A stretch of 41,075 nucleotides of DNA from Betaproteobacteria bacterium (GTDB lineage: Bacteria > Pseudomonadota > Gammaproteobacteria > Burkholderiales > Rhodocyclaceae). Below, piece after piece: positions 1-18,150 of the stretch (position 1 is the stretch's first letter; each line of letters begins with the position of its first letter). The notes under the pieces were generated by a model. The model saw only the letters and a list, made by a program, of their open reading frames with translations. It did no database searches and was not told where the DNA came from. The position numbers were made by a program, and so were the translations under genes. The stretch covers positions 1 through 41,075 of the forward strand of contig SHNC01000067.1 in assembly GCA_004295105.1 (NCBI GenBank), written 5' to 3'.

Positions 1-126
1 CGGCGTGGAAGCCAGGGGCTGATCGCCCCTGGCGCCGCGGTCACCGATCGACATGACCCGCCGACGGTGTCCGCATCGGGTCGGGTGAAGACCCCCTTGC
101 AGCCGCGCACCGCGCGGCTTTTTTTT
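1..126 (+). other. Left-edge non-coding stretch with hairpins
   Basis: No gene can be assigned here. Two short reading frames end in it (stops near 20-22 and 54-56), so the tail of an upstream plus-strand gene may be cut off by the window edge. Bases 11-33 form a perfect 9-bp inverted repeat (GCCAGGGGC / GCCCCTGGC) with a 5-nt loop and no T tract. The terminator at 101-126 follows. Confidence 0.4.
101..126 (+). terminator. Rho-independent terminator
   Basis: A perfect 8-bp stem (AGCCGCGC at 101-108, GCGCGGCT at 112-119) with a 3-nt loop is followed directly by a run of T (120-126). It would end a transcript entering from the left, outside the window, and insulate the sigma54-type unit that follows. 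Confidence 0.85.
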
Positions 127-440
127 GCTCGGCCGTGCTCGCCCCGGAGCCTCCGGCCACCACCCCGTCATTGATCGGGACGAACCGTGCCCCGGAAGCC
201 CATATTGAGGCTAGGACTTTCGGGTGTTTCCCCGCTGATACACCTGCCGCGACACCGCGATTCACGCTCAACTGATTGTTTTGGTGGATTTTGTGCAATG
301 CAAACCGGCGCCCCGCGACTGCCACACGGCGGCGTATTGTGTATCGACTCTGGAACAGTCCGCCCCGCCTTCGCACCTCGGGTCTGCCTACAAGGCTCCG
401 TATCGCGCCGAATCCGGCTTGCCGAGCGGGATCTAGCCAC
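127..440. other. Non-coding region upstream of the fibre-locus promoter
   Basis: There is no convincing gene. Short open frames exist, but they lack ribosome binding sites and recognisable products. The stretch is less GC-rich around 265-305. By position it is where the activator of the sigma54-type promoter at 441-456 would bind. I could not find an exact IHF consensus or a clear palindrome in it. Confidence 0.5.
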
Positions 441-456
441 TGGCATGAGAGTTGCG
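441..456 (+). promoter_or_regulatory. Sigma54-type (-24/-12) promoter of the secreted-protein operon
   Basis: TGGCATGAGAGTTGCG carries the invariant GG (442-443) and GC (454-455) separated by exactly 10 nt, and it fits the family consensus TGGCAYR-N4-TTGCW closely. Transcription would start near 467, about 50 nt before the start codon at 519. The same locus encodes a sigma54 activator with an intact GAFTGA motif, which makes a chance match less likely. The promoter is inferred from sequence only. Confidence 0.75.
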
Positions 457-518
457 TTCTCTTGTCGCTGAGGCAGGGCGCGTCGCCATGTCTTGACACC
501 AAATCAGCGGAGGAAGCC

Positions 519-2396
519 ATGAAACCAAGTCTGCTCGCGAGTGCAATCGCGCTCGCGTTCGGTTTTGCCACGCAGGCGTCGGCAAACCCCACCAACACCC
601 TCGATTCCGCAGAAACCGCAACGCAAACTGCGACGGCGAACTCGACCCAGGGCGGCACCGGACCGCAGGCCAACGAGTACTCCGTTGCCAAATGGTCGCA
701 GGACCAGAACAGCAGCAACACCTCCGACAACAGCGTGCACACGCACGAGCGTAACGACAACAGCCAGGGCAGCAACCGCGACAACGAAGGCAAGGCCTAC
801 GCACGCGACTACGCCACCGCCGCGAACAACGGTGGCACGGCGACGTCGAGCATCGACAACGCCTTCAACACCAGCAAGGCAGTCGCGTTGTCCAAGCTCG
901 AGGGCTCGGTGACGCACATCAAGGTTCATGGCCTGGGCAATAACGCCGCCAACTTCGGCAGCGCCAATGGCGGCGATGGCGGCAAGGCCTGGGGTGGCGA
1001 CGGCGGCAAGGCGGTCGGCGGCGATGCCAAGGGCGGCAACGGCGGCGACGGCGGCAAGGCCTGGGGTGGCGACGGCGGTAACGGCGCCAAGGGCGGCAGC
1101 GCCTGGGGTGGCAGCGCCGACAGCGGCAGCGCGAAAGCGGCAGCCATGGGCGGCAAGGCGAGCGGCGGTGACGCCGACTCCGGCTACGTGAAGGCGTATG
1201 GCGGCGGCGACGCCAACGGCGGCGGCGCAGACTCCGGCAGCGCCTGGGGCGCAAGCGGCGGCGACGGCGGCAATGCCCGCAACGCCAAGGCCGGCGGCGG
1301 CGGTGATGCCACGGCCAAGGTCGGCTCGTCGGCAGATACCGGCAGGGCCAGCGGCGGCGACGCCAAGAGCATGGTCGGCAGCACCAAGGCGGGCGCGGGC
1401 GACGCAACGTCCGCAAGCAACGCATCGGGTGGCAGCGCCAAGGGCTACGGCGGCGACGCCTGGTCGTCGGCGAAAACCTATGTCGGTGGCGCGGACGCTG
1501 GCAGCAAGGCCGGCGGCAGCGGTGCGGATGGCGGCAGCGCAGGAGGCGGCAGCGCCGGTGCGAAGTCGATCGACGCCACGGCGAACGCACGCGGCTCGGG
1601 TAACGACACCGCGACGGCCTCCAACACCTCGACCTCCAACGGCGGCGCCGGCGGCGGTGGTGGTGCGGCGCAATCCGCCGGTGGCACGACGGGCGCGGCG
1701 ACTGCGACTGGCGGCAGCAACACCCAGACTGCCAGCGCGACCGGTGGTGCCGGTTCGGGCGTCGGTGGCGCCGGCAGTGCGACCGACACCGCAGCAGGCG
1801 GCGCCGCAACCGCGAATGGCGGTACGGGCAGCGCAACGGGTGGCGCCGGCGCATCCGGCGCGGCGACGGCGAACTCCGGCGCAGGTTCGGCAACCGGCGG
1901 CAATGGCGGCATGGCAGCCAACACCGGTGGCGCGGCCGGAGCCGGCGGGACGGCGACGAGCGGCTCGGCCAGTGGCGGCGCAGCCACCGCGGGCAACGGC
2001 GGAACCGCCTCCAGCGGCGCGTCGACCGGCGGTGCAGCCAACGGCGGCGCGGCCACGACCACGGCCTCGAGCGGTGACTCGACCGGCGGCGCGGCCAACG
2101 GCGGCGCCGGCGGCGGCGGCGGTGCCGGCAATGGCGGCACCGGTGGCGCCGGCGGTGGCGGCGGCACGGTGACCGCAGGCGCGGCCACCGGCGGCGCCGG
2201 CAACGGCGGCACCGGTGGTGCGGGCGGTGCCGGCGGCGCGGTCAGTGTCGCGGCGGGAACGTTCGACATGTCGAACTCCATCGGCGGCAGCTTCACCAAC
2301 GGCGCCGGCATCATCATCAATGCCATGAACAGCGGCATCGGTGCCCTGGTGCAGCAAAGCGCCAACGTGCAGGCCAACCTGAACTTCAACAGGTAA
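519..2396 (+). CDS. Secreted Gly/Ala-rich low-complexity protein, candidate fibre or matrix subunit
   Basis: This 625-residue protein starts at ATG 519 behind a GGAGG at 509-513. Residues 1-22 are a clear signal peptide ending in QASA. Residues 23 to about 145 are rich in Asn, Thr, Ser and Gln. From about 146 to 350 come irregular repeats built on GGDGGKAWGG and GGSAWGG units, with Lys, Asp and occasional Trp. From about 355 to 575 the sequence is almost uncharged Gly/Ala/Thr/Ser. The last 45 residues look ordered and end with NSGIGALVQQSANVQ. I see no cysteine anywhere. It is the first gene behind the sigma54-type promoter and precedes two more secreted proteins and a C39 peptidase. By context it is the main structural subunit of a surface fibre or matrix. 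By sequence alone it could be any glycine-rich exported protein. The family is not recognised. A long open frame on the other strand is a by-product of composition. Confidence 0.8.
   Translation: MKPSLLASAIALAFGFATQASANPTNTLDSAETATQTATANSTQGGTGPQANEYSVAKWSQDQNSSNTSDNSVHTHERNDNSQGSNRDNEGKAYARDYATAANNGGTATSSIDNAFNTSKAVALSKLEGSVTHIKVHGLGNNAANFGSANGGDGGKAWGGDGGKAVGGDAKGGNGGDGGKAWGGDGGNGAKGGSAWGGSADSGSAKAAAMGGKASGGDADSGYVKAYGGGDANGGGADSGSAWGASGGDGGNARNAKAGGGGDATAKVGSSADTGRASGGDAKSMVGSTKAGAGDATSASNASGGSAKGYGGDAWSSAKTYVGGADAGSKAGGSGADGGSAGGGSAGAKSIDATANARGSGNDTATASNTSTSNGGAGGGGGAAQSAGGTTGAATATGGSNTQTASATGGAGSGVGGAGSATDTAAGGAATANGGTGSATGGAGASGAATANSGAGSATGGNGGMAANTGGAAGAGGTATSGSASGGAATAGNGGTASSGASTGGAANGGAATTTASSGDSTGGAANGGAGGGGGAGNGGTGGAGGGGGTVTAGAATGGAGNGGTGGAGGAGGAVSVAAGTFDMSNSIGGSFTNGAGIIINAMNSGIGALVQQSANVQANLNFNR
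969..1078 (+). repeat. In-gene direct repeat coding GGDGGKAWGGDGG
   Basis: A unit of about 38 bp beginning GGCGGCGAYGGCGGCAAGGC occurs at 969 and again at 1041. That is 72 bp, or 24 codons, apart and in frame, with only silent differences in the first part. Looser relatives continue to about 1450. The repeats mark the Lys/Asp/Trp-containing half of the glycine-rich protein and are a likely site of length variation by slippage or recombination. Confidence 0.7.
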
Positions 2397-2406
2397 GCCT
2401 CTCGCG

Positions 2407-2440
2407 GACGCCGGCCGGCCCTCAACGGCTGACCGGCGTC
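2407..2440 (+). other. Intercistronic stem-loop
   Basis: GACGCCGG (2407-2414) pairs perfectly with CCGGCGTC (2433-2440) across an 18-nt loop, in the 76-nt gap between the glycine-rich protein gene and the next gene. No T tract follows, so it is more likely an mRNA-stabilising or partly attenuating structure than a full terminator. Such a structure would allow more of the first product than of the downstream ones. That role is inferred. Confidence 0.45.
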
Positions 2441-2472
2441 TGGCGCGAGCATCCAGAGAGAGGAGGCAAACC

Positions 2473-2838
2473 ATGAGATCTGCTGCATCGATGATCGCAT
2501 TGGGGATTGGATTGGCCGTGACGTGCGCGACTCCTGCGCCCGTGCATGCCGAAGAGGCGGAAACGCTGACCTCGGCCACTGCTCCTCTGTTCCAGGGACG
2601 CAAGGTGATCGACATGGAGACGCTCGCCGAGCAACGCGGCGGGGCCGACGTGCATCTCAGCGAGATCCGCGCGGTCGGCTCGGTCGAGGACGTGAAAGCC
2701 TACGACCTGACGACCGGCCAGAACGTGATTTCCGAAGGTTCGTTCGCCGGCACGGCGGGCATGCCGCTTGTGGTGCAGAACTCCGGCAACGGCGTGCTGA
2801 TCCAGAACGCGGTCATCCTCAACGTCGAGGTGCGTTAG
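2473..2838 (+). CDS. Small secreted protein with NSGxG...QN C-terminal motif
   Basis: The 121-residue product starts at ATG 2473 behind AGGAGG at 2461-2466. Residues 1-26 form a signal peptide ending in PVHA, and the mature protein is acidic. The C-terminus (residues about 96-121) contains two hydrophobic-hydrophobic-Gln-Asn strands, PLVVQNSGNG and VLIQNAVILN. They align with the end of the glycine-rich protein encoded just upstream (NSGIGALVQQ) and with a segment of the 312-residue protein encoded downstream. I do not recognise a named family. Position, export and shared motif suggest a minor or nucleating subunit of the same structure. The gene is 11 bp upstream of the C39 peptidase gene and surely co-transcribed with it. 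Confidence 0.8.
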   Translation: MRSAASMIALGIGLAVTCATPAPVHAEEAETLTSATAPLFQGRKVIDMETLAEQRGGADVHLSEIRAVGSVEDVKAYDLTTGQNVISEGSFAGTAGMPLVVQNSGNGVLIQNAVILNVEVR

Positions 2839-2849
2839 CGGAGATGAGC

Positions 2850-3554
2850 ATGAGAACGCTCGATCTGCGGAACCTTCTTGTTTGCGCCGTGGCCGCTGCC
2901 TTGGGCGGCGTCGCCACGGCGTCCTTTGCCGACAATCTCAACCTGGTGGCGCCTCTGGGCGGCAGCATGAGCGTGCCGACGGTGAGCATGAAGGAGGCGC
3001 GCTTCATCTCCACCCTGCGCCAGCAATACGATTTCAGTTGCGGCTCGGCGGCCGTCGCGACGCTGCTGAGCCATCATTACGGCTACAAGGTCGATGAAGC
3101 CGCGGTGTTCCAGTCCATGTTCGAGCGCGGCAACCAGGACAAGATCCGCCACGAGGGCTTCTCGATGGCCGACATGAAGCATTACCTCGACAGCAAGGGC
3201 TTCATCGCCACCGGCATCGAAGCGTCGCTGGATGAACTGGGCAAGGCCAAGGTGCCCGCCATCGCCCTGATCAACGAGAGTGGTTACGCTCACTTCGTCG
3301 TCATAAAAGGGATGCGGCCGGGCGAAGTCCTGATCGGCGACCCTGCCGCCGGCACCCGCGTGCTAGCACGCAAGGATTTCGAACGTTACTGGATGAACAA
3401 CATCCTGCTGGTCGTCAGCAACCGCATCGAACTGGCGCGCTTCAACCACGAGACCGACTGGCGCGTGCGCCCCAAGGCGCCCCTGCGCCGTGGGGTCGAC
3501 GGCGGCGGCGCCGACCTGCAGTTGCTGCAACGACGCAGCTTGGTGGATTTCTGA
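2850..3554 (+). CDS. Exported C39-family cysteine peptidase (FapD-like)
   Basis: This 234-residue protein has an N-terminal signal or anchor segment (residues 8-28) followed by a single peptidase C39 domain. The catalytic set is visible: the Gln before the nucleophile (Q58/Q59), Cys64 in YDFSCGSAA, His148 in AHFVVIKG and Asp164 in IGDPAAG. C39 domains usually sit on bacteriocin ABC exporters and cut double-glycine leaders. Here there is no ABC part, as in FapD of the Pseudomonas Fap amyloid system. It probably acts in the periplasm on the neighbouring secreted proteins or on the barrel pore. ATG 2850 is chosen because GGAG at 2840-2843 is well spaced for it. An in-frame ATG at 2844 is the alternative and is too close to that site. 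The basic, Arg-rich tail after residue 200 is not part of the core fold. Confidence 0.88.
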   Translation: MRTLDLRNLLVCAVAAALGGVATASFADNLNLVAPLGGSMSVPTVSMKEARFISTLRQQYDFSCGSAAVATLLSHHYGYKVDEAAVFQSMFERGNQDKIRHEGFSMADMKHYLDSKGFIATGIEASLDELGKAKVPAIALINESGYAHFVVIKGMRPGEVLIGDPAAGTRVLARKDFERYWMNNILLVVSNRIELARFNHETDWRVRPKAPLRRGVDGGGADLQLLQRRSLVDF

Positions 3555-3568
3555 AGAGGAAGGCATCC

Positions 3569-4507
3569 ATGGAAATCCGCAAGCCCCTGCTCTGTCTGCT
3601 TCCCTTCATCGTTGCCGGCCTGTTCGCGACCGACGACGCCACGTCCAATGGACGCAGAAGCGGCAGCCTGGCGGGCAATGGCTTCGCGCCGGGCGTGTGC
3701 GAGATCGAGCCGCCCGCTGAACTTCTTGCCCTGGCCGATTGGCCCGCTGACAGCACGGAGCCCTGCCTCGGCGGCAGCAGCGCGTCCGCTGCCAGCGCAT
3801 CGAGCGCCACCCTCGCCGAGGTCGTGGAAGCGCGTGTTCGCCCAGTGCGCGAAGTTCTGCTCGCCGGCCTCGAAGAACCTTCGGGACGAGGCGGGCAGAG
3901 AATGAACCATGCCTCGTCGAACGATGGCAAGGACCAGGTTGCCAACGTGGACGGCATCCCACCGCTACCGCCACAGCAGTTGTCCAGTGCCGACGCAGAC
4001 GCGGACGGCGAGCCCGCTGTGTCACACCAGGAGAATGCTGCGGCCACACAACAGAAACCCCGAGCGCAGCTAGCCGCACTGCTTGCGCGCGCCCCGGTAG
4101 GCGACGATGAGCTCGACGAACTGCGAGGCGGATTTCAGACGCCCGACGGCCTCAGCGTGAGCTTCGGCATCGAGCGTGTGGTTTACGTAAACGGCGTGCT
4201 GCAAAGCACCACCGCCTTGCGCGTGGAAGACCTCGGGCAACTGCACGGCGGCGCTGCGGGACCGGCGGTCGTGCTGCCCCCGGGTGCGACCGTTGCGCTG
4301 ATTCAGAACGGCGGCGGCAATAGCGTTGCGGGCAACGTGCTGAACGGCGCTGCGCTGGGCACGATCATCCAGAACTCGCTCGACAACCAGAAGATCCAGA
4401 CGGTGACAACGATCAATGCGACCGTCAACAGCGTGCAGGCCTTGCAGGGGCTGCGCATGCAGAACTCGCTGCAGGAAGCACTGAATCGCGCCACCCTGAT
4501 GCGCTGA
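3569..4507 (+). CDS. Secreted protein with QN-motif C-terminal region (FapE-like by position)
   Basis: The 312-residue product starts at ATG 3569 behind GAGGAAGG at 3556-3563, 14 bp after the peptidase gene. Residues 1-20 are a signal peptide. The middle (about 25-170) is low-complexity Ala/Ser/Glu/Pro sequence that is probably disordered. From about 175 the protein looks ordered, with a segment reading VSFGIERVVYVNGVLQ. It continues with VALIQNGGGNSVAGN and LGTIIQNSLDNQ. These Val/Ile-Gln-Asn strands resemble the C-termini of the other two secreted proteins of the locus. It is the last gene before the operon terminator. I do not recognise a family. A minor subunit or adaptor of the fibre is the best guess from context. 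Confidence 0.78.
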   Translation: MEIRKPLLCLLPFIVAGLFATDDATSNGRRSGSLAGNGFAPGVCEIEPPAELLALADWPADSTEPCLGGSSASAASASSATLAEVVEARVRPVREVLLAGLEEPSGRGGQRMNHASSNDGKDQVANVDGIPPLPPQQLSSADADADGEPAVSHQENAAATQQKPRAQLAALLARAPVGDDELDELRGGFQTPDGLSVSFGIERVVYVNGVLQSTTALRVEDLGQLHGGAAGPAVVLPPGATVALIQNGGGNSVAGNVLNGAALGTIIQNSLDNQKIQTVTTINATVNSVQALQGLRMQNSLQEALNRATLMR

Positions 4508-4530
4508 ACGCCCAACACTCCACGGAATTG

Positions 4531-4567
4531 AGCCTCGGAGCCGCTGAAACGCGATCCGAGGCTTTTT
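4531..4567 (+). terminator. Rho-independent terminator of the secreted-protein operon
   Basis: AGCCTCGG (4531-4538) pairs with CCGAGGCT (4556-4563), followed by TTTTT and CTT. It closes the plus-strand operon before the convergent barrel-protein gene, whose stop is at 4587. The reverse direction lacks a comparable T tract. Confidence 0.85.
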
Positions 4568-4586
4568 CTTATCTACCAGCGGAACA

Positions 4587-5888
4587 TCAGAAGGACAGGG
4601 GTGTTCTGAGAGTGAGCTGAACGTCGGGGGTGTCACGCGTGACGCCGACACCCAGCGAGAGGTTGAGCGTCCGTTGCGAATTCAGCTTGTACGAGTACCC
4701 AAGCAGCAGCGAACCGAGTTGCACCCGCACACCTTCGGCTTTCGATCCATTGACAAAAGTGGCGTCGGTCTTGCCCACGGAGAGGTGATCATAGCCAATG
4801 CTGAATGAGGATCGGTCGTTCAACGCCAGGCCCATGCCGAAGTTGAACCCGAGAACGCCACCGGGCTGAATTTCCTCATAACTGGCCCGCGAGGTCGTCG
4901 GAACGACATTGGGTGTCACGTTGCTGCGCCTGATACTGTACTGGTAGCTGATGCCACCAAAGAACACGGCCGGGTCCGAAGGGATCAAGACAGTCAAACC
5001 GGGCGTCAGCGAATAGAAACCCGACCCGGTCGGCAGTTCTTCCTGAACGCCCGAGGTTCTCGCGCCATCAGCCTCGAAGCTCGTCCTCACCTCGAAGGGA
5101 TCCTTGCCAGTTCGGGTCTTGAGCCGCAACGACGCAATGTAATAGGGAGAGTCCCCACCGCCATCATTCAGTTGATAGCGGCCAATCAGTTCGACGTCAC
5201 CCAACCCGCGACCGGTACTGTCCACGAAGAACTGGTCAGTCGGCTGGCCTGAAAAAACCTCGCGCCCGCGCGTGTTGTCGAAGCGATAGACATAAGGCAC
5301 GCGCGCCTCGAGTTCGAAGCGGTTGGTGATGCCGCGCCGCATGGCGAGCGTCGCCGTGAAGCTGTTCGATTTGACGTTGCGGACGTCGATCAGGCCGATC
5401 AGGATCGCCGGGATCACCGTGTAGCCGACCAGGGCGATCCGGTCGGATGACGAATACGAGTATTGCAGCGACGGTTCGACGATCCACTTGCCCGGCGGCG
5501 TCAGCACGCCGGGCTGCTCGAAGATCGGTGCCACCTCCGGCGGCCGGTCGCGCGCCGCCGGAGCCTGTCCGACAGGCTTCGCCGACTGGCCCGCGGCGGC
5601 TTGGGCAACCACGGCCGGGGCACCGCCAGCAGCAGGCGGCGGGGTATCGCCGCGGCCCCGACGATTCAGATCCAGTTCGCGGCGCAGTTCGGCCAGCGCA
5701 GCCTCCTGCCGCGCCAGTTCGCGCTTCATCAGCTCGATCTGGCGCGTCTGGATGTCGAGTTGCTGCTGCACATGGTCGACACCCGACGCTGCATCTTCTG
5801 CCGCCAGCGCACCATGGCCGGATGCAGCCAGCAGCAGACCGGCGACGGGTGGCCCCAGCCTGCGCGTCGAACGAAACAAGGACACCAT
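4587..5888 (-). CDS. Outer-membrane beta-barrel protein with coiled-coil N-terminus (FapF-like transporter)
   Basis: The 433-residue product starts at ATG 5888, with GGGGAGG six bases upstream. A TTG start 15 bases further out is possible but lies within the ribosome-binding region. Residues 1-30 are a signal peptide (GALAA). Residues about 36-76 form a heptad-like coiled coil (VQQQLDIQTRQIELMKRE), then a Pro/Ala linker to about 125. The rest has alternating amphipathic strands typical of an outer-membrane barrel and ends in Phe. The order coiled coil, linker, barrel is that of FapF, the trimeric pore that secretes Fap amyloid subunits. Other members of this broad 'transporter' or phenol-degradation MetA class have been linked to small hydrophobic compounds, so transport of something else remains possible. 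The gene follows the bEBP gene by 42 bp on the same strand and converges on the operon it probably serves. Confidence 0.82.
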   Translation of the reverse strand: MVSLFRSTRRLGPPVAGLLLAASGHGALAAEDAASGVDHVQQQLDIQTRQIELMKRELARQEAALAELRRELDLNRRGRGDTPPPAAGGAPAVVAQAAAGQSAKPVGQAPAARDRPPEVAPIFEQPGVLTPPGKWIVEPSLQYSYSSSDRIALVGYTVIPAILIGLIDVRNVKSNSFTATLAMRRGITNRFELEARVPYVYRFDNTRGREVFSGQPTDQFFVDSTGRGLGDVELIGRYQLNDGGGDSPYYIASLRLKTRTGKDPFEVRTSFEADGARTSGVQEELPTGSGFYSLTPGLTVLIPSDPAVFFGGISYQYSIRRSNVTPNVVPTTSRASYEEIQPGGVLGFNFGMGLALNDRSSFSIGYDHLSVGKTDATFVNGSKAEGVRVQLGSLLLGYSYKLNSQRTLNLSLGVGVTRDTPDVQLTLRTPLSF

Positions 5889-5930
5889 GACAATCCTCCC
5901 CAATGGATGGTCGGGCCGCCTTCAGCGCGG

Positions 5931-7262
5931 CTAGAGAATGATCTTCAAGCGATCGATCATGCGGTACAGCGTGACGCGGGAGATGCCGAGCTGCCTGGCC
6001 GTCTCCGACACATTGTTGCGATACTTGCGCAGGCTCGTCTCGATGACTTCGCGCTCCACCGAGGAGCGAAGCTCATCCAGCGTTGGCGCGGCGACATTGC
6101 CCTCGGAGGACGACAATCCGAGGTCGGAGGCAGCGATGAATTTATGCTCGGTCATTATCATCGCCTGCTGAACGCGGTTCATCAACTCGCGGACGTTGCC
6201 AGGCCACGGGTGATCGACCATCGCCTGCACCGCCTCGGAGCTGAACCCTCTTACCTGCGGGCTTTTCTGATGCTGGTTGTCGGCAAAGATCGCCTCCGCC
6301 AGCAAAGGGATGTCTTCCCGCCGCTCGCGAAGCGGCGGGACGTTAAGGTGCAGCACGTTCAGGCGATAGTAAAGATCCTGGCGGAAACGGCCCTCGGCGA
6401 CGGCACGCGCGAGGTCGACGTGGGTAGCCGCGATCACGCGCACATTCACCTTGATGCGCTCGGTCGAGCCCACTCGCGTGATCACCTTTTCCTGCAGGAA
6501 GCGCAGCAGGCTAGCCTGCAGGTCGAGTGGCAGGTCGCCGATCTCATCAAGGAACAGCACGCCGCCACTGGCCGCCTCGATGCTCCCCACCTTGCGCTGT
6601 GCCGCGCCGGTGAACGCTCCGCGCTCATAGCCGAAAAGCTCGGAGTGGATGAGGCTGGGGGCGATGGCACCGCAGTTCATGGCGATGAAGGGGCCGCTCG
6701 CGCGCACCGAGTGCTGGTGGATTGCGCGCGCGACCAGTTCCTTGCCCGATCCGGATTCACCGCCGATCAGCACCGGCGCATCGACACCGACGACCTTGTC
6801 CAGTTGCCGGTAAAGCTGCAGCATTCGCGGGCTGGCGCCGGTCATGCCATAGCGCCCGCCCACATGCGGTGGCTCGCTGTCCCGATTACAGAACTGCACC
6901 TTGCCGTAAGCATGGCCAAGGGAAAACTGCAGTCTCTCCCGCTCCAGCGGCATCGAATGGAAATCGTGAAACAGTCGCAGCGTCGCTGCGGGAATGGTGC
7001 CACTGTGCAACAGGCCCGGGCCAAGCAACGCAATCCACTCGAGGTCATGGTGCGAGATGAGTGCTTCAATCTCGCGCTCCAGCCACGACGACACCGAATC
7101 GAGAACCACCAACCCGACCGAAACGGAACCGCCGCTGAGCGCACGGCGCGCCGCATCGAGCGAGGATACGATCTGGAAGTCCCAATCCTGGAGCTCGAGC
7201 GCGCGCAGCACACCACAGATCGCCCCGCCCCGATCCACGACCAACGCCTTACGACTAGACAT
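5931..7262 (-). CDS. Sigma54-dependent activator (bEBP) with degenerate receiver-like N-terminus
   Basis: The 443-residue protein begins with a receiver-like domain (1 to about 125; KALVVD, LVVLD with Asp55). This domain lacks the usual acidic pair and shows no obvious conserved Lys, as in FleQ/VpsR-type regulators. An AAA+ domain follows, with Walker A GESGSGKE (168-175), the sigma54 contact loop GAFTGA (215-220), Walker B VLFLDE (235-240) and a PWPGNVREL element. A Fis-type helix-turn-helix is at the end (VSETARQLGISRVTLYRMI). It should activate the sigma54-type promoters at 441-456 and 7533-7547. FleQ controls fap and biofilm genes in Pseudomonas, which is a parallel and not proof. ATG 7262 has no good ribosome site of its own and is overlapped by a short upstream ORF. 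A TTG at 7295 is the only in-frame alternative upstream. Confidence 0.9.
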   Translation of the reverse strand: MSSRKALVVDRGGAICGVLRALELQDWDFQIVSSLDAARRALSGGSVSVGLVVLDSVSSWLEREIEALISHHDLEWIALLGPGLLHSGTIPAATLRLFHDFHSMPLERERLQFSLGHAYGKVQFCNRDSEPPHVGGRYGMTGASPRMLQLYRQLDKVVGVDAPVLIGGESGSGKELVARAIHQHSVRASGPFIAMNCGAIAPSLIHSELFGYERGAFTGAAQRKVGSIEAASGGVLFLDEIGDLPLDLQASLLRFLQEKVITRVGSTERIKVNVRVIAATHVDLARAVAEGRFRQDLYYRLNVLHLNVPPLRERREDIPLLAEAIFADNQHQKSPQVRGFSSEAVQAMVDHPWPGNVRELMNRVQQAMIMTEHKFIAASDLGLSSSEGNVAAPTLDELRSSVEREVIETSLRKYRNNVSETARQLGISRVTLYRMIDRLKIIL

Positions 7263-7332
7263 GGGCAAGACCAGTCCGGCAAATGAATGCTGCAAAGGGG
7301 CGCAAGCGAGATGCCCCAGGAACGTCCCTCAT
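7255..7332 (-). CDS. Possible 25-residue leader ORF overlapping the bEBP start
   Basis: ATG 7332 is preceded by a very strong ribosome binding site (AGGAGGAGT). It opens a frame of 25 codons (MRDVPGASRLRPFAAFICRT and five more) ending at a TAG that overlaps the ATG of the activator gene by 8 bp. The activator start itself has no Shine-Dalgarno sequence. This arrangement fits translational coupling, in which ribosomes finishing the leader re-initiate on the activator. The peptide resembles nothing I know. A sequencing frameshift joining the two frames is the main alternative. Confidence 0.45.
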   Translation of the reverse strand: MRDVPGASRLRPFAAFICRTGLAHV

Positions 7333-7532
7333 GACTCCTCCTGTTCTCCAGTCGCAGTCGCATGCTCACCACGAGACGACGGGGCGAGATCGAGGCGGAC
7401 GGTGACGACTCTCCCTGCCCGCATTCCATCTCGCCCCGCTGCGACCTGCTTCCACCGACTCGTCTGCGACGAATCTGCAAGGAACCGTCCGATGGCCCTC
7501 TACGAAGCCTGTCGATCCGACCTTGGTTACAA

Positions 7533-7547
7533 GCAGCGAGCGTGCCA
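7533..7547 (-). promoter_or_regulatory. Sigma54-type (-24/-12) promoter of the bEBP-barrel operon
   Basis: Read on the minus strand, TGGCACGCTCGCTGC has a perfect -24 block (TGGCACG) and the -12 GC exactly 10 nt after the GG. The only departure from TTGC is C for the first T. Transcription would start near 7521. This suggests the activator gene is itself sigma54-dependent, hence autoregulated. Inferred from sequence only. Confidence 0.7.
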
Positions 7548-7566
7548 GTCAGTCTTTTGTTATTTT

Positions 7567-7772: not shown

Positions 7773-10511
<2,739 letters not shown>

Positions 10512-10545
10512 GTTTATGGGGCGATGTCGATTCGGCAAAACGCGG

Positions 10546-10554
10546 AGTTTATCA
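10546..10554 (-). promoter_or_regulatory. Possible secA -10 element (extended)
   Basis: On the minus strand TGATAAACT fits an extended -10 (TGn-TAAACT) about 35 bp before the secA start codon. No good -35 is seen at 17-18 bp spacing, which is tolerable for an extended -10 promoter. Confidence 0.35.
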
Positions 10555-10610
10555 TGTCGGGCTTGACCGCCTCATGACCGCCCCCGGCGACATCCAGGTA
10601 CGCGCCCAAC

Positions 10611-11042
10611 ATGTCACAGCTTCTGAACCGTTTCCTCGGCAGCGGCGATGCGCTCGCCCGCCTGCAGGATCATGCCGCGCGGCTGCGCAGGCTGCAGGTC
10701 GTGCTCGAGCGCGGCCTGCCTCCCCTGCTCGCCGGGCTGTGCCGGGTCGCGAATCTCAAGGATGGAACCCTCGTCCTGAGCGCCAGCGGCGGTGCGGCGG
10801 CCGCCCGGCTGCGACAGCTCACACCCAGCCTGGTCGAGCATTTCGTGGCGGCCGGCCATGCCGTACAGACGATCAAGGTCAAGGTCGCCACGCCGGAAAC
10901 AGCGACCTGGCGCCGACCGCCGCCCGAGCGCCACATCTCGGCCAGCGCGCGTGCCAGCCTGACGCAGTTCGCCGCCACCCTGCCGGCGGATTCGCCGTTG
11001 CGCGCGTCGCTGGAGCGGCTGGCTCAGCGCAGCCGCGAGTGA
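10611..11042 (+). CDS. DciA-like (DUF721) protein
   Basis: The 143-residue product fits the DUF721/DciA family: a basic N-terminal helix region (residues 10-40, LARLQDHAARLRRLQVVLER) and a core reading LKDGTLVLSASGGAAAARLRQL. DciA proteins assist loading of the replicative helicase DnaB in bacteria lacking DnaC. The position divergent from secA is familiar in proteobacteria. Assignment rests on the DUF721-like core and context. The start codon at 10611 has no strong ribosome site. Confidence 0.7.
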   Translation: MSQLLNRFLGSGDALARLQDHAARLRRLQVVLERGLPPLLAGLCRVANLKDGTLVLSASGGAAAARLRQLTPSLVEHFVAAGHAVQTIKVKVATPETATWRRPPPERHISASARASLTQFAATLPADSPLRASLERLAQRSRE

Positions 11043-11091
11043 GACTGCAAGGTGCCTGGCACCGACGGACAGCGGGGTCGCGCGATCGCCG

Positions 11092-11280
11092 TCAGGCCAC
11101 GGGCACCAGCACACGCTCGAGCGCAAACAGCGCAAGCAACACGAAAAGCACCACCGCGGTAATCCGGAACGCCTTCCACGCCCAGGCGCGATAGCGCGGA
11201 TTGCCGGTCAGCAGCCACAGCAGCACCGAGCCGCCGATGGCGAGCACCGCGAGCAGCACCAGCAGGCGCATGATCAGCAT
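11092..11280 (-). CDS. Small membrane protein with two predicted helices
   Basis: The 62-residue product consists almost entirely of two hydrophobic segments (residues about 4-24 and 38-60). They are joined by a short basic loop (TGNPRYRAWAWKAFR). It lies 64 bp downstream of lpxC on the same strand and may be the last gene of that transcript. It converges on the dciA-like gene. No family is recognised, and function is unknown. An in-frame ATG at 11271 is an alternative start. Confidence 0.65.
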   Translation of the reverse strand: MLIMRLLVLLAVLAIGGSVLLWLLTGNPRYRAWAWKAFRITAVVLFVLLALFALERVLVPVA

Positions 11281-11344
11281 GCGGAGGCTCGCGCACGAAG
11301 ACCGACGCAGGGCACGCTCGATGCGTCGCCGGACGAGCGCATGC

Positions 11345-12268
11345 TCAGACCCCGGACAGCACCGGCGCGAACTGGTGCGCCACCGCGGCCGGCGTGCTGG
11401 ATTCCTGCTCGAAGGTGACGATTTCCCAGGCCTCGCTGTCTTCCAGCAGCACGCGCAGGATCTGGTTGTTCAGCGCGTGGCCGGCCTTGTGCGCCGAGTA
11501 CGCCGCCAGCAGCGGATGACCGCACAGGTAGAGGTCGCCGATGGCGTCGAGCACCTTGTGCTTGACGAACTCGTCCGCGTAGCGCAGGCCATCGGCATTG
11601 AGCACGCGGTATTCGTCCATCACGATCGCGTTGTCCAGGCTGCCGCCGAGCGCCAGCCCCACCGCCCGCATCGATTCGACGTCCTGCATGAAGCCGAAGG
11701 TGCGCGCGCGCGCGACGTCGCGCACATAGGACTGCTCGGCGAAATCGACGGTCACCGAGGTCGACGTGCTTTCGATCGCCGGATGGTTGAAGACGATGGA
11801 AAAGGTCAGGCGGAAGCCGTCATGGGGCTCGAGGCGGACCCATTTGTCGCCCTCGCGATACTCGACCGGCTTCTTGACGCGCATGAACTTCTTCAGCGCG
11901 GTCTGCTCCTCGATGCCGGCCGACTGCAGCAGGAAGACGAAAGGCCCGGAACTGCCGTCGAGAATGGGGATCTCGGGGGCATCCACGTCGACATGCAGGT
12001 TGTCGATGCCCAGCCCGGCCAGCGCCGACATCAGGTGTTCCACCGTGCCGACCTTCTCGCCGCCCTTCTCGAGGCCGGAACACATGCGGGTGTCGCACAC
12101 CGCGTAAGGGTCGGCGGGCAGTTCCAGCGGCGGATCGAGATCGACACGATGGAAGACGATGCCGGTGTCGGGCGCCGCCGGACGCAGCACGAGCGTGACC
12201 TTGCGGCCGCCGTGCAGGCCGACGCCTGTCGCCTTGACGATGGACTTGAGGGTACGCTGCCTGATCAT
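11345..12268 (-). CDS. lpxC: UDP-3-O-acyl-N-acetylglucosamine deacetylase LpxC
   Basis: The 307-residue zinc amidase performs the first committed step of lipid A synthesis in the cytoplasm. The zinc ligands are visible as His78 ([10 protein letters not shown]), His237 ([11 protein letters not shown]) and Asp241; His264 (KAGHALNN) is the catalytic His. The start at 12268 follows AGAGGAT. It is separated from ftsZ by a 201-bp gap containing a strong hairpin, so it is probably transcribed at least partly from its own promoter in that gap. Confidence 0.98.
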
Positions 12269-12396
12269 CTGGAAAATCCTCTTTCAGGCCAGCAGTTTAT
12301 CACGCGGTGTTCGGCGGCCCGGGCTATGGCGCAGTTGAACCCGGGCTGTTGAGCAAGCAGATGTTGCAATGCGGCAACGGTGCTGCAACGAAATGC

Positions 12397-12447
12397 GAAA
12401 AGGGCACCTGACCGGGACCGGAGGCAGCGATCCCGATGAGGTGCCCT
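12397..12447 (-). terminator. Long hairpin terminator after ftsZ
   Basis: On the minus strand AGGGCACCT (12447-12439) pairs perfectly with AGGTGCCCT (12409-12401). An inner CGGGA/TCCCG stem extends the hairpin, and TTTT follows at once. It sits 23 bp beyond the ftsZ stop and would end or reduce the dcw transcript before lpxC. Confidence 0.7.
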
Positions 12448-12469
12448 GAGGCCGCGCAGGCCTGCGCCG

Positions 12470-13612
12470 TCAGTCGGCCTGGCGGCGCAGGAAGGCCGGA
12501 ATGTCGTAGGTGCCGACACCGTTGGTGCTCATCGCCTCTACGGTGGTGCGGCGGCCGCTGCGGATGACCGCCGGCACGTCGAGGTTGTTCATGTCGACCG
12601 CCCCGCCGCTCATCGGACCATAGGTGCCGGTGCCGGCGACAACCTGCATCACCGGCTGCCGCACCGCGCGCGGCGTTCCAAGGCCGGTGGCGACCACGGT
12701 GATGCGGATGCGGTCTTCCATGTTCTCGTCGAACACGGTGCCGTACTTGACGAAGGCTTCCGGCGCGGCGAAGGCCTGCACGGTCTTCACCGCATCACGC
12801 ACCTCCGCCATCTTCAGCGACTTGCTGGCGGTGATGTTCACCAGCACGCAGCGCGCGCCCGACAGTTCAGTGCCTTCGAGCAGCGGCGACACGGCGGCCT
12901 GCTCGGCAGCGATGCGTGCACGATCCATGCCGGCGGCTTCGGCGGAGCCCATCATGGCGCGGCCCATCTCGGCCATCGCGGTGCGCACGTCCTGGAAGTC
13001 GACGTTCACCAGGCCGGGCACGTTGATGATCTCGGCGATGCCGCCCACCGCGGAGCGCAGCACGTTGTCGGCCGAGCGGAAGCATTCCTCGAAGCCGGCG
13101 TCGTCGCCGAACACGTCGAGCAGCTTGTCGTTGAGCACGACGATCAGCGAATCGACGTGGCGCGTCAGTTCCTCGATGCCGCTCTCGGCGACGCGGATGC
13201 GGTTCTCGAAGTCGAACGGCTTGGTGACCACGGCGACGGTCAGGATGCCCATTTCCTTGGCGATCTCGGCCACCACCGGCGCGGCGCCGGTGCCGGTGCC
13301 GCCACCCATGCCAGCGGTGATGAACACCATGTGCGACCCCTCGAGCGCAGCGGAGATCGCCTCGCGCGATTCCTGCGCCGCCGCGCGGCCGGCCTCCGGC
13401 TTGGAACCGGCGCCCAGGCCCGACGTGCCGAGCTGCACCTTGTACGACGCGAGGCAGCGATTGAGTGCCTGCGCATCGGTATTGGCGGTGATGAACTGCA
13501 CGCCCTGCACGCCCTCGCGGATCATGTGATCCACGGCGTTGCCGCCCGCGCCGCCCACGCCGACCACCTTGATGATCGTCCCGGTCGGTTCCTTCTCAAT
13601 GATTTCAAACAT
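12470..13612 (-). CDS. ftsZ: Cell division GTPase FtsZ
   Basis: The 380-residue tubulin homologue forms the Z-ring. The start MFEIIEKEPTG is preceded by GGAGG. The nucleotide loop GVGGAGGNAVDHM and the tubulin signature GGGTGTG (103-109) are intact. After the GTPase and T7-loop domains comes a short linker. The C-terminal peptide YDIPAFLRRQAD binds FtsA/ZipA. It lies 141 bp after ftsA, the first real gap in the dcw cluster, which allows separate control of FtsZ level. Confidence 0.99.
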   Translation of the reverse strand: MFEIIEKEPTGTIIKVVGVGGAGGNAVDHMIREGVQGVQFITANTDAQALNRCLASYKVQLGTSGLGAGSKPEAGRAAAQESREAISAALEGSHMVFITAGMGGGTGTGAAPVVAEIAKEMGILTVAVVTKPFDFENRIRVAESGIEELTRHVDSLIVVLNDKLLDVFGDDAGFEECFRSADNVLRSAVGGIAEIINVPGLVNVDFQDVRTAMAEMGRAMMGSAEAAGMDRARIAAEQAAVSPLLEGTELSGARCVLVNITASKSLKMAEVRDAVKTVQAFAAPEAFVKYGTVFDENMEDRIRITVVATGLGTPRAVRQPVMQVVAGTGTYGPMSGGAVDMNNLDVPAVIRSGRRTTVEAMSTNGVGTYDIPAFLRRQAD

Positions 13613-13668
13613 TTGCCTCGCCTCCAAGAATAACGATGCTGCTATCCACCGAACGCCGACCGGGCTAT

Positions 13669-13701
13669 ATTTAGTATTGTTCGCAGAGTTTACTACTAAA
13701 T
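13669..13701. promoter_or_regulatory. AT-rich inverted repeat in the ftsA-ftsZ spacer
   Basis: ATTTAGTA (13669-13676) and TACTAAAT (13694-13701) are perfect 8-bp inverted halves, 17 bp apart. They lie in a conspicuously AT-rich island within otherwise GC-rich DNA, about 60-90 bp upstream of ftsZ. It may be an operator or part of an ftsZ promoter. No clear consensus -35/-10 pair is seen. Confidence 0.4.
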
Positions 13702-13753
13702 CTAGACCCGGAAGCAAGCCCACATTCAAAACAGCCGGAACCGTCCGGCACGT

Positions 13754-14983
13754 TCAGAAATTCTTCTCGAACCATGACTTCATGCGGCCGAAAACCTGCC
13801 GCACGCTCCGCGTTTCCCGCGCCTGCATGCCGCGCCGGCGCTGGGCCGCGCCTTCCATCACCAGTCCCATCGCCGTGGCGTAGCGCGGCTGGCACACGAC
13901 GTCGGCCAGCCCGCCGTCGTACTGCGGCGCCCCCACCCGCACCGGCATGTGGAACACGTCCTCGCCGAGTTCCACCATGCCGCGCATCACCGACGAACCG
14001 CCGGTCAGCACGATGCCCGACGACAACAGCTCTTCGTAGCCGCTGCGCCGCAGTTCCGCCTGTACCAGCTCGAACAGTTCCGACACCCGTGGCTCGATCA
14101 CGTCGGCCAACGCCTGGCGCGACAGCTTGCGCGGCGGACGGTCGCCTACGCCCGGCACCTCGATCATGTCGTCGGGCTCGGCAAGCTGGTGCATGGCCAC
14201 GCCCTGGTGGATCTTGATTTCCTCGGCTTCGGCCGTCGGCGTGCGCAGCGCCATCGCGATGTCGTTGGTGATCTGGTCGCCGGCGACCGGGATCACCGCC
14301 GTGTGGCGGATCGCACCCTGCGTGAACACGGCGATGTCGGTCGTGCCGCCACCGATGTCCACCAGGCACACGCCGAGTTCCTTCTCGTCCTCGGTGAGCA
14401 CCGCATAGCTGGAGGCGAGCGGCTGCAGGATCAGGTCCATGACCTCGAGGCCGCAGCGGCGCACGCACTTGATGACGTTCTGCGCCGCGGAAACCGCGCC
14501 GGTGACGATGTGCACCTTGACTTCCAGACGCACGCCGCTCATGCCGATCGGCTCGCGCACGCCGCCCTGGCCGTCGATGATGAATTCCTGGGTCAGGATG
14601 TGCAGGATCTGCTGCTCGGCCGGGATGGGCATCGCACGCGCGACCTCGATCACGCGCTCGACGTCCATCGGCGACACTTCCTTCTCCTTGATCGCGACCG
14701 TGCCGCTGGAGTTGAAGCTCTTGATGTGGCTGCCGGCAATGCCGGTATAGACGTCGTGGATCTTGCAGTCGGCCATCAGCTCGACTTCCTGGATCACGCG
14801 CGAGATCGCATCGACGGTGGCCTCGATGTTCACCACCACGCCGCGCTTCAGACCGCTGGTCGGCTGCGTGCCGAGGCCGATCACGTTGAGCCGCCCGTCG
14901 GGCCGCGCCTCGGCCACCATGCAGGTGACCTTGGATGTGCCGATGTCCAGCCCGACGATCAGATCCTTGTATTCCTTGCTCAT
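13754..14983 (-). CDS. ftsA: Cell division protein FtsA
   Basis: The 409-residue actin-like ATPase tethers FtsZ to the inner membrane. The phosphate-1 motif LDIGTSKVTCMV is at residues about 12-23, the phosphate-2 segment reads VDIGGGTTD, and the adenosine motif is TGGSS. The C-terminus (RSVRQVFGRMKSWFEKNF) is the amphipathic membrane-targeting helix. The start ATG overlaps the ftsQ stop (ATGA), so longer upstream readings are shadows. Confidence 0.98.
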   Translation of the reverse strand: MSKEYKDLIVGLDIGTSKVTCMVAEARPDGRLNVIGLGTQPTSGLKRGVVVNIEATVDAISRVIQEVELMADCKIHDVYTGIAGSHIKSFNSSGTVAIKEKEVSPMDVERVIEVARAMPIPAEQQILHILTQEFIIDGQGGVREPIGMSGVRLEVKVHIVTGAVSAAQNVIKCVRRCGLEVMDLILQPLASSYAVLTEDEKELGVCLVDIGGGTTDIAVFTQGAIRHTAVIPVAGDQITNDIAMALRTPTAEAEEIKIHQGVAMHQLAEPDDMIEVPGVGDRPPRKLSRQALADVIEPRVSELFELVQAELRRSGYEELLSSGIVLTGGSSVMRGMVELGEDVFHMPVRVGAPQYDGGLADVVCQPRYATAMGLVMEGAAQRRRGMQARETRSVRQVFGRMKSWFEKNF

Positions 14984-15834
14984 TTCTTGCCCTTGACTGA
15001 CACACTCGCCGCCGGCGTCGCTCCAGCGACCGGCGTCAACGCGAAACCGCTCGGATAGCGGAGATCCGCCACCGCAACCTGTACTCCAACCTGTTCCTGC
15101 ACCTTCGGCCATACGGCGATGAAGCGTGCCATGCGCTCTTTCAGCGGCGCCCGCTCCTGCTCGCGCCCGAGCAGGATCACCAATCCGTTGTCGAGCGTGA
15201 GTCGCCACGCCTCGCGTGCCGACAACGCCAGCCCGACCAGTTGCAGTCCCAGCGGCTGCAGCATGGTCGAGAATTCCTTGTGCCGCGCCAGCAGCCAGCC
15301 CGACGAGCCCTGCGGGCCGTCGAACTGCGGCATCGTCGCGTTGCTCGCCGCGGTGAAGACTTCGCCGAATCGATTCACCAGACGCGCATCGCCGCTTTCG
15401 GAAACGGTCCAGTAGGCCACCGCCTGGTGTTCCTCCAGCCGCAGCTCGACGGCGTCTGGCCAGCGCCGGCGCACCTCGGCGCGCCGCACCCAGGGCAGCT
15501 TCTCGAAGGCGGTGCGTACCTCCTCCAGATCCATCGTGAAGAAATTGCCGCGGATCGCGGTGCGCGCGACATATTCGAGTTGGGCCTGGGTGACCTGTGC
15601 CGGCGGCGTCTGCACGATGAGTTCGCGCACCGGGAACAATGGACGCGATACGAACCAGATCACCAGCGCCCAGCCCAAGCCGATCGCCGCGAACAGCATC
15701 AGCAGGTCCGAGATCAGGTTGAGCAGCGCCGGCCGGTGCCACAGCCCGGTTTCCACCGCCGGTGCGCGCCCGCCCGCCCGCGCCCGGCTGCGGGCGACGG
15801 CGGGTGCAGCGGCACGGGCGCGGAGCTCAGCCAA
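14980..15834 (-). CDS. ftsQ: Cell division protein FtsQ
   Basis: The 284-residue bitopic protein has an Arg/Ala-rich cytoplasmic tail, one transmembrane helix (about 40-62) and a POTRA domain beginning near FPVRELIV. A beta domain follows, and together these recruit FtsB/FtsL to the septum. The start is a TTG at 15834 that overlaps the ddl stop by 8 bp and has GGAGGGG upstream. A GTG at 15756 would shorten the tail but lacks such a site. The C-terminus is coupled to ftsA by ATGA. Confidence 0.95.
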
Positions 15835-16734
15835 GGCGGGCCCCCTCCAGGATCTTCAGGCACAGCGCCTCGAAGCTCAGGCCGGCGACCCGGGCCGACA
15901 TCGGCACCAGCGAGTGCGCCGTCATGCCCGGCGAAGTGTTCATCTCGAGCAGATAGGGACGGCCGTCCTCGGTCAGGATCAGGTCGGCGCGCCCCCAGCC
16001 ACGACAGCCCAGCATGCGCGCGCACTTCATGACCAGCGCCTGGAGCACGGCTTCCTGTTCGGCCGGCAGGCCGCAGGGGCAGTCGTAGCGCGTGTCGTCG
16101 GTGAAATACTTGTTCTGGTAATCGTAGTTGCCGCCCGGCGCCACGATGCGCACCAGCGGCAGCGGCTGATCCTCGAGGAAGGGCGCGGTCAGCTCGGCAC
16201 CGGCAATGAATTCCTCGGCGATCACCAGGTCGTCGTAGCGCGCCGCGAGCTCCCAGGCGGCGGCGAGCTGGCCGGCCTCGGTGACCTTGGTCGCGCCCAT
16301 GCTGGAACCCTCGTGCACCGGCTTGACGAAGATCGGCAGGCCGAGGTCGCGCACCACCGCGCCCCAGTCGCTGTCGGCGTCGAGGATGGCGTAGCGCGGC
16401 GTGGGCAGGCCGGCGGCCAGCCACACCATCTTGGTGCGCCACTTGTCCATGCTCAGCGCCGACGCCATCACGCCGCTGCCGGTATAGGGAATGCCCATCA
16501 GCTCGAGCGCGCCCTGCACCGTGCCGTCCTCTCCGCCGCGGCCGTGCAGCGCGATGAACACGCGGTCGTAGCCTTCTTCCTTGAGGCAGTGCAGATCACG
16601 CTCGGCCGGGTCGAAGGCATGCGCATCGACCCCCGCGCCCTGCAGCGCGGCCAGCACCGCACGCCCGGACATCAGCGAAACCTCGCGTTCGGCGGACGCG
16701 CCGCCGAACAGAACTGCCACCTTGCCGAACCGCT

Positions 16735-16738
<4 letters not shown>
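15827..16738 (-). CDS. ddl: D-alanine--D-alanine ligase
   Basis: The 303-residue ATP-grasp enzyme makes D-Ala-D-Ala for the peptidoglycan stem peptide. N-terminal [19 protein letters not shown] and [12 protein letters not shown] are the DdlB signatures, and [13 protein letters not shown] lies in the metal/ATP site. The start is GTG 16738, overlapping the murC stop (GTGA) with GAGGAG upstream. Confidence 0.97.

Positions 16739-18146
<1,408 letters not shown>

Positions 18147-18150
<4 letters not shown>

Follow-up and report, generated by a model that had tools for sequence, protein, structure and literature searches.

Results

A secretion locus of uncertain kinship

The window analysed here, a stretch of 41,075 nucleotides (nt) that is the whole of one contig (C13) from a member of the Rhodocyclaceae whose closest named kin is Thauera, holds at positions 441 to 7550 six genes that pair a secretion apparatus with secreted proteins of low-complexity or repeat-bearing sequence. 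Do they form a Fap-type system, such as exports functional amyloid in Pseudomonas, or make something else? A preliminary description drawn from the sequence had proposed the export logic of Fap, applied to a different, glycine-rich polymer. We consider it probable that this is a divergent Fap-type export and assembly locus. Judged by its sequences it is likely to work like Fap, and it is not Fap by two criteria, subunits with three repeats and the group to which the barrel belongs in a tree. All six open reading frames (ORFs) were recovered where they had been placed:

519..2396, + strand: Gly/Ala-rich secreted protein of 625 amino acids (aa), candidate major subunit at the FapC position, with homologues at the same place in relatives
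2473..2838, + strand: ORF for a 121-aa secreted protein, candidate minor subunit or nucleator
2844..3554, + strand: exported, FapD-like C39 cysteine peptidase of 236 aa, with C66, H150 and D166
3569..4507, + strand: ORF for a 312-aa secreted protein, put at the FapE position by its place in the locus and its homologues
4587..5888, − strand: FapF-like outer-membrane barrel with N-terminal coiled coil, 433 aa from the ATG at 5888
5931..7262, − strand: σ54 activator with a VpsR-type N-terminal domain (Pfam), 443 aa

Signal peptides of these proteins were judged by eye only. The order subunits–C39–E–barrel resembles fapBCDEF, with the barrel and activator genes reversed in the window.

An exported C39 peptidase and a coiled-coil barrel related to FapD and FapF

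Pfam found a Peptidase_C39 domain in the peptidase (E = 6.3e-23), whose best NCBIfam match was FapD with 134.6 bits (cut-off 330), followed by FilB with 105.7 bits. Likewise, the barrel matched FapF best (152 bits, equivalog cut-off 700) and then FilC (60.7 bits). Scoring under the curated cut-offs, both are by sequence relatives of the Fap proteins and not confident equivalogs. All six further C39 peptidases tested, three canonical ones included, also fell under the FapD cut-off of 330, and 0 of 274 class genomes reached 700 for FapF. C66, H150 and D166 are kept in at least 90% of 54 peptidases from loci of the window's type (defined below) and of 20 canonical ones. Positions that differ between the two sets exist, and no tie between them and a preference for G or for R/K was established. 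From its sequence, the protein is an exported, stand-alone C39 peptidase of the FapD type.

The solved FapF in the PDB was matched by barrel residues 119-432 (phmmer, E = 1.2e-31). An AlphaFold model built from 27 window-type barrels (mean pLDDT 73) predicts a helix at residues 32-78, which supports the N-terminal coiled coil, and strands at 135-431. Its top structural matches were 18 FapF chains (E 3e-21 to 5e-16), and next came the COG4313 uptake channel 4rl8 (E = 1.9e-10). This last match is what speaks for a small-molecule uptake channel of the COG4313/Phenol_MetA_deg type with unrelated neighbours. Such a reading is already disfavoured, and we give it hardly any credence, because the FapF chains rank above 4rl8, the barrel gave no PF13557 match at E ≤ 1, and it co-occurs strictly with its neighbour genes, as described below. 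Sequence and model point to a relative of FapF with the FapF-type N-terminal coiled coil, and the FapD/FapF-like pair of the preliminary description stands on NCBIfam, PDB and structural matches alike; the outcome named there as its refutation, a barrel clustering with small-molecule transporters, was not borne out.

Double-glycine leaders as candidate cleavage sites

Beyond what had been described, the 312-aa protein lies at the FapE position, and two of the secreted proteins carry double-glycine leaders:

2608..2643, + strand: leader IDMETLAEQRGG, residues 46-57 of the 121-aa protein, predicted cut after G57, next residue A
4097..4132, + strand: leader VGDDELDELRGG, residues 177-188 of the 312-aa protein, predicted cut after G188, next residue F

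The C39 leader consensus is L(−12)xxxE(−8)L(−7)xxxxG(−2)G(−1), with position −4 setting specificity (PMC6959990). The 312-aa protein fits it with V177, E181, L182, L185, G187 and G188, and so does the pattern in 44 window-type E-position proteins: position −12 is hydrophobic, −7 Leu or Met, −3 Arg, the GG intact and +1 Phe or Tyr in all 44, and −4 is hydrophobic in 42. The motif is preceded by 19 to 457 residues (43/44 measured) and followed by 117-125 in 35 of the 44. Its conservation is not circular, because a seed lacking the leader found an E-position protein in 49 of the 54 C39-bearing loci and L...RGG[FYI] was present in 49 of 49. Two of the five loci without a seed match (L062, L063) are cut by the locus end; in the other three (L108, L151, L135) the E-position ORF carries the motif when read directly.

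Overall, 20 of 21 canonical loci have a FapE in which the motif reads RG[RK]. L...RG[RK][FY] was found in all 12 loci of a first set, in which 11 E ORFs were picked by position alone and that of L101 was reassigned after the motif scan; it is also present in the Aeromonas caviae E protein and in seven of eight further canonical loci, the eighth having HGK. Of eight canonical E proteins measured, seven have the predicted cut at residue 39-50 of 215-256 and one has it at residue 66 of 286. This is compatible with a report in which the first ~70 residues of FapE yielded no peptides, without explaining the figure of ~70; according to the same paper FapF too may be processed (PMC5557850). The E-position proteins aligned with FapE at P = 2.3e-5 (hhalign) with the leader block, on which both alignments were anchored, and an E-position profile matched canonical FapE (separate sets) at E = 0.1 at best. 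On these sequence comparisons, the leaders probably mark sites of FapD-type cleavage.

Peptides that C39 ABC transporters export typically have double-glycine leaders (PMC6959990), and the small double-glycine proteins could on that ground be microcin-like secreted toxins or signals with the barrel as their exit. The leader consensus and the C39 domain are shared with exporters such as PCAT1 and the bacteriocin ABC transporters, the mature 121-aa protein would have 64 residues, and on a Vibrio plasmid the gene of a HlyD-family secretion adaptor adjoins the E-position gene (L134:12811-14196, − strand). Unlike in those exporters, the window peptidase is stand-alone with a signal peptide, and its putative substrates have signal peptides (judged by eye). 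Neither an ABC exporter nor an immunity gene was found among the window's six genes, the mature small proteins carry a Fap-type repeat, and 18 of 19 family genomes have both the E-position and the Gly-rich gene. A toxin or signal is therefore very improbable in our view.

Subunit candidates with one Fap-type repeat

The Gly/Ala-rich protein (28% Gly, 21% Ala, no Cys) and its secreted neighbours had been described as free of Fap repeats, and their want of CxxC had been held to set them apart from Fap. The latter argument falls away, CxxC not being a universal Fap feature (PMC3684753). The former is contradicted by the pattern NxI..xAF....G(I/V)..V.QN.G.N...QQ, which the Gly-rich protein (in its final 45 residues) and the 121-aa protein (at its end) share with related stretches:

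2253..2390, + strand: single C-terminal Fap-type repeat, residues 579-624 of the Gly-rich protein (profile matches)
2716..2823, + strand: Fap-type repeat of the 121-aa protein (shared repeat pattern)

The first of these gave i-E 5.5e-27 with a profile of Gly-rich-protein repeats that includes this protein and i-E 8.3e-15 with a profile of 121-aa-protein repeats; repeat profile searches found no second significant copy in the protein. When profiles of the three secreted proteins were iterated, they ran into one another and into canonical Fap proteins, so separate sets and leader-free seeds were used instead. Two related subunits (L109, L111) hold four repeat copies each, and these aligned with canonical FapB/FapC repeats at an hhalign score of 27.8, as against at most 14.5 in 30 column shuffles. 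The four-copy profile also hit five FapB-position proteins (E 1.3e-5 to 4e-2; hmmsearch of 2832 canonical-locus ORFs), and the 121-aa repeat set reached 18.7 against a shuffle maximum of 11.5. By itself the Gly-rich repeat matched no canonical protein with profiles from separate sets; on sequence, its tie to Fap is indirect, via the four-copy relatives. A 1647-aa ORF with ~21 Fap-like repeats was observed beside a related barrel on an Indioceanicola profundi plasmid (L137:1736-6676, − strand); no C39 or E protein was found within that 17-kb stretch.

None of the three secreted proteins had a credible family match in Pfam or NCBIfam (the FapA model lay outside the search), the best Pfam match being DUF6396 at E = 0.0089, under its cut-off. 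fapA is often missing from true fap loci (PMC3792158).

The 49 homologues of the Gly-rich protein (one incomplete, L072) have a median length of 625 aa and a median Gly content of 28%; three contain Cys. Five have 2-9% Gly, and in L110, L112 and L113 the middle part is replaced by Asp/Ser/Asn-rich repeats or tracts (2-4% Gly), so that the proposed glycine-rich polymer describes most of the lineage and not these members. Ten canonical FapC proteins have 7-17% Gly. Within the Gly-rich middle part, a glycine spacing of three was not above expectation (0.132 versus 0.129). Such exchange of the middle part, together with low complexity over most of the protein's length, would suit a surface coat or adhesin that is not amyloid, leaving the cell by the exporter without polymerizing through the repeat. 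The terminal repeat, however, is conserved and multiplied in relatives, as amyloid repeats are, and we regard a mere coat or adhesin as unlikely.

A barrel group apart from Fap and Fil

We built a tree of 73 usable barrels without an outgroup, leaving out two cut barrels (L079, L080). Window-type barrels (54 rows, support 99/95), canonical FapF (13 rows, 99/96) and Fil barrels (six rows, 100/100, on long branches and with two rows odd in letter make-up) each formed one side of a branch, and the window barrel thus groups apart from both canonical FapF and the FilC-type branch. Three barrel groups are supported by these sequences, which strengthens the claim of a third lineage discussed below; the root, itself uncertain, decides which two of them pair as sisters.

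The Fil system (Acinetobacter FilA-FilF, 'putative pilus system' in NCBIfam) resembles the locus in its pair of C39 peptidase (FilB) and barrel (FilC), and differs in its separate barrel group. This comparison rests on the peptidase and barrel; FilA, FilE and FilF genes, annotated in L133, stand outside it.

With Fap the likeness goes further: a FapF-type barrel with coiled coil and a periplasmic-type C39, an E-position protein with a leader-like motif, Asn/Gln subunit repeats, subunit, D and E genes in the same order, and VpsR-type σ54 activators, found near the six canonical loci tested too. The window might then hold a plain fap operon, diverged in sequence, that makes an ordinary FapC-type amyloid. 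Three imperfect repeats per subunit are a criterion of Fap, and we counted three in 20 of 21 canonical FapB/FapC ORFs (six in the other), in line with a GTDB survey that gives ~94% of FapB/FapC with three repeats (PMC12392863); the Gly-rich and 121-aa proteins have one each. In addition, the barrel falls outside the canonical group, the E protein has RGG in place of RG[RK], the small subunit also has a double-glycine leader, the major protein is Gly/Ala-rich, and the barrel is encoded on the opposite strand. Both NCBIfam scores lie under the equivalog cut-offs, though so do those of the canonical relatives tested. One genome (G210) holds both a canonical and a window-type locus on the same contig (C11; L102 and L103), ~89 kb apart. 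An ordinary fap operon is accordingly an improbable account of the window, and we retain the divergent Fap-type locus.

The genes travel together

A genome-wide survey of the barrel, the FapE-position protein and the N-terminus of the Gly-rich protein was made in a sample of 199 genomes drawn from the family, taking barrels of at least 53% identity as window-type. A barrel match was present in 21 genomes, in 19 at 53-100% identity and in two at 27%, the latter being canonical fap loci (L114, L115). Exactly the same 19 genomes carried the FapE-position protein, and 18 of them, with no other of the 199, the Gly-rich N-terminus; four sampled genomes of the same genus lack both. The co-occurrence in relatives on which the preliminary description had staked its reading is thus borne out: all six genes are genuine, and they keep company more often than chance would give.

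Among 54 window-type loci with a C39 peptidase, the stretch examined also contained the barrel in 54, the E protein in 49 and the activator in 42. In all but three (L057, L136, L151), a repeat-bearing or Gly-rich subunit lies upstream of the C39 gene on the same strand; the strand and distance of the barrel and activator genes vary. No C39 match was found in four of the first 50 window-type loci, and no member of the set in L081, a Pseudomonas locus taken on a weak match. In L063 an extra Gly-rich stretch lies between the small subunit and the C39 gene, and L152 (G607) is a duplicated locus in which the C39, E-position and small-subunit genes each occur twice and the barrel gene once.

Further window-type loci were found in Azoarcus, Rhizobacter, Massilia, Janthinobacterium, Undibacterium, Rhodoferax and the gammaproteobacterium Fulvimonas, and further loci in Cupriavidus metallidurans CH34 (L131), Vibrio (L134), Photobacterium (L138) and the alphaproteobacteria Croceicoccus and Polymorphobacter (L135, L136). 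The last two are on Sphingomonadales plasmids, where the C39/E/barrel set lies beside large low-complexity ORFs. Fap was earlier limited to beta, gamma and delta classes (PMC3792158), and co-located fapD/fapF homologues have been reported from five more phyla (PMC6173800).

Probable σ54 control of the subunit operon

Two σ54-like sites bound the locus, on which both ends of the previously described span fall:

441..456, + strand: σ54 (−24/−12) site TGGCATGAGAGTTGCG, matching the consensus at 9 of 11 positions and lying 78 nt before the Gly-rich gene
7532..7547, − strand: weak σ54-like site TGGCACGCTCGCTGCT upstream of the activator gene, 10 of 11 positions

We scanned 400 nt upstream of each gene for sites that have both the GG and the GC and match 9 or more of the 11 positions. 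Such a site precedes 35 of 49 Gly-rich genes (the window's own included), 33 of them at 73-101 nt, a count in which many genes are close relatives or tandem copies and hence not independent. It occurred in 239 of 3000 random 400-nt windows and before 3 of 58 peptidase, 4 of 62 barrel and 6 of 51 activator genes; this last figure is why we rate the site at 7532-7547 as weak. Pfam assigns the regulator a Sigma54_activat domain, an AAA lid, HTH_8 and the VpsR N-terminal domain, and the proposal of σ54 control with a dedicated activator agrees with both results. The same architecture was found near three window-type loci tested as well as the six canonical ones, so the activator is not special to the window-type lineage.

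Genome context

A second Gly-rich paralogue of 626 aa lies on another contig of the same genome (C42:21538-23418; L118), with a σ54 site of its own 76 nt upstream.

1..137: overlap with the end of contig C42 (contig ends matched by eye)

The match of ~137 nt holds except for the length of one T run, and an exact-overlap test returned 0 because the T-run lengths differ. Given this overlap, the Gly-rich pair is probably tandem and split by the assembly, which would make the order gly2-gly1-s121-C39-E, as in L053 and L054; L053 belongs to Thauera sp. 2A1, whose barrel is 87% identical to the window's. Adjoining the locus (7773-19311, − strand) is an ordinary cell-division and wall cluster with secA, lpxC, ftsZ and murC.

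Discussion

How would such a locus work? In our model, the linked VpsR-type activator switches on σ54 RNA polymerase to transcribe the subunit operon, as the conserved −24/−12 site suggests. Every product but the activator would leave the cytoplasm via Sec. In the periplasm, the FapD-like C39 peptidase would cut the 121-aa protein after RGG57, releasing a 64-residue mature part, and the FapE-position protein after RGG188, releasing one of 124 residues. The FapF-like barrel, presumably a trimer like FapF, would pass unfolded subunits across the outer membrane. Outside the cell the small mature proteins may start the fibre, which Gly-rich subunits would join by their one conserved C-terminal Fap-type repeat, and the long Gly-rich middle part may coat the fibre or the cell surface.

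Several results weigh against this account. Cleavage, secretion, fibre formation and amyloid character are all predictions from sequence. The peptidase's 134.6 bits to FapD compare with 239-285 for the three canonical C39 peptidases. The consensus E(−8) is kept in just 8 of 44 window-type E-position proteins, and beyond the leader block these proteins resemble FapE weakly (mature part, hhalign P = 0.014). Among 121-aa proteins, strict L...RGG is present in just 27 of 37, or 32 of 51 hits, both counts including two misassigned four-repeat subunits (L109, L111); others show RGA, RGR, RGK, RGQ, SGG or similar variants, and a hydrophobic residue stands at −4 in just 11 of 34. The Gly-rich repeat scored 15.0 with canonical Fap against a shuffle maximum of 14.5, which is not significant, and AlphaFold gave no usable model of a four-repeat subunit (pLDDT 33). 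Finally, an earlier barrel tree with a small-molecule outgroup split the window type, which held together in 30% of its bootstrap replicates, and placed Fap and Fil together at 96/98; its outgroup rows were long-branched and eight usable rows (seven window-type, one Fil) were absent from it.

We put forward more tentatively, as a joint claim that may well fail in part, that the locus represents a third lineage of fibre systems of the FapD/FapF type; that its periplasmic C39 peptidase matures two subunits by cutting at genuine double-glycine leaders; that its fibre is built from subunits whose single conserved C-terminal amyloid layer carries an exchangeable display region, Gly/Ala-rich in the window and Asp/Ser/Asn-rich elsewhere; and that RG[RK] is the FapD site in FapE family-wide. 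Of the preliminary description, then, the Fap-like export logic survives, and the absence of repeats and universal Gly-richness do not.

FapD acts in the periplasm; Fap secretion requires its activity, and secretion of FapC its Cys. The target of FapD was described as "unclear" in 2017 (PMC5557850) and "undetermined" in 2018 (PMC6173800). The 2017 paper describes the Fap proteins as without canonical C39 sequences (PMC5557850), a double-glycine motif has been noted in FapF itself (PMC5135000), and a 2025 review states that FapD is thought to process FapE and FapF (PMC12822426). In the literature searched, mostly without subscription papers and preprints, we found no description of the locus, of its hosts with Fap, or of the FapD site. 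The new elements are the lineage, its subunits with one repeat and, most of all, the leader motif. Window-type proteins carry canonical C39 leaders, and canonical FapE retains the motif at the aligned site with R or K last, so that one precise cleavage test would serve both systems. The finding adds loci from beta-, gamma- and alphaproteobacteria whose subunits follow another plan, and these may be of use for protein materials.

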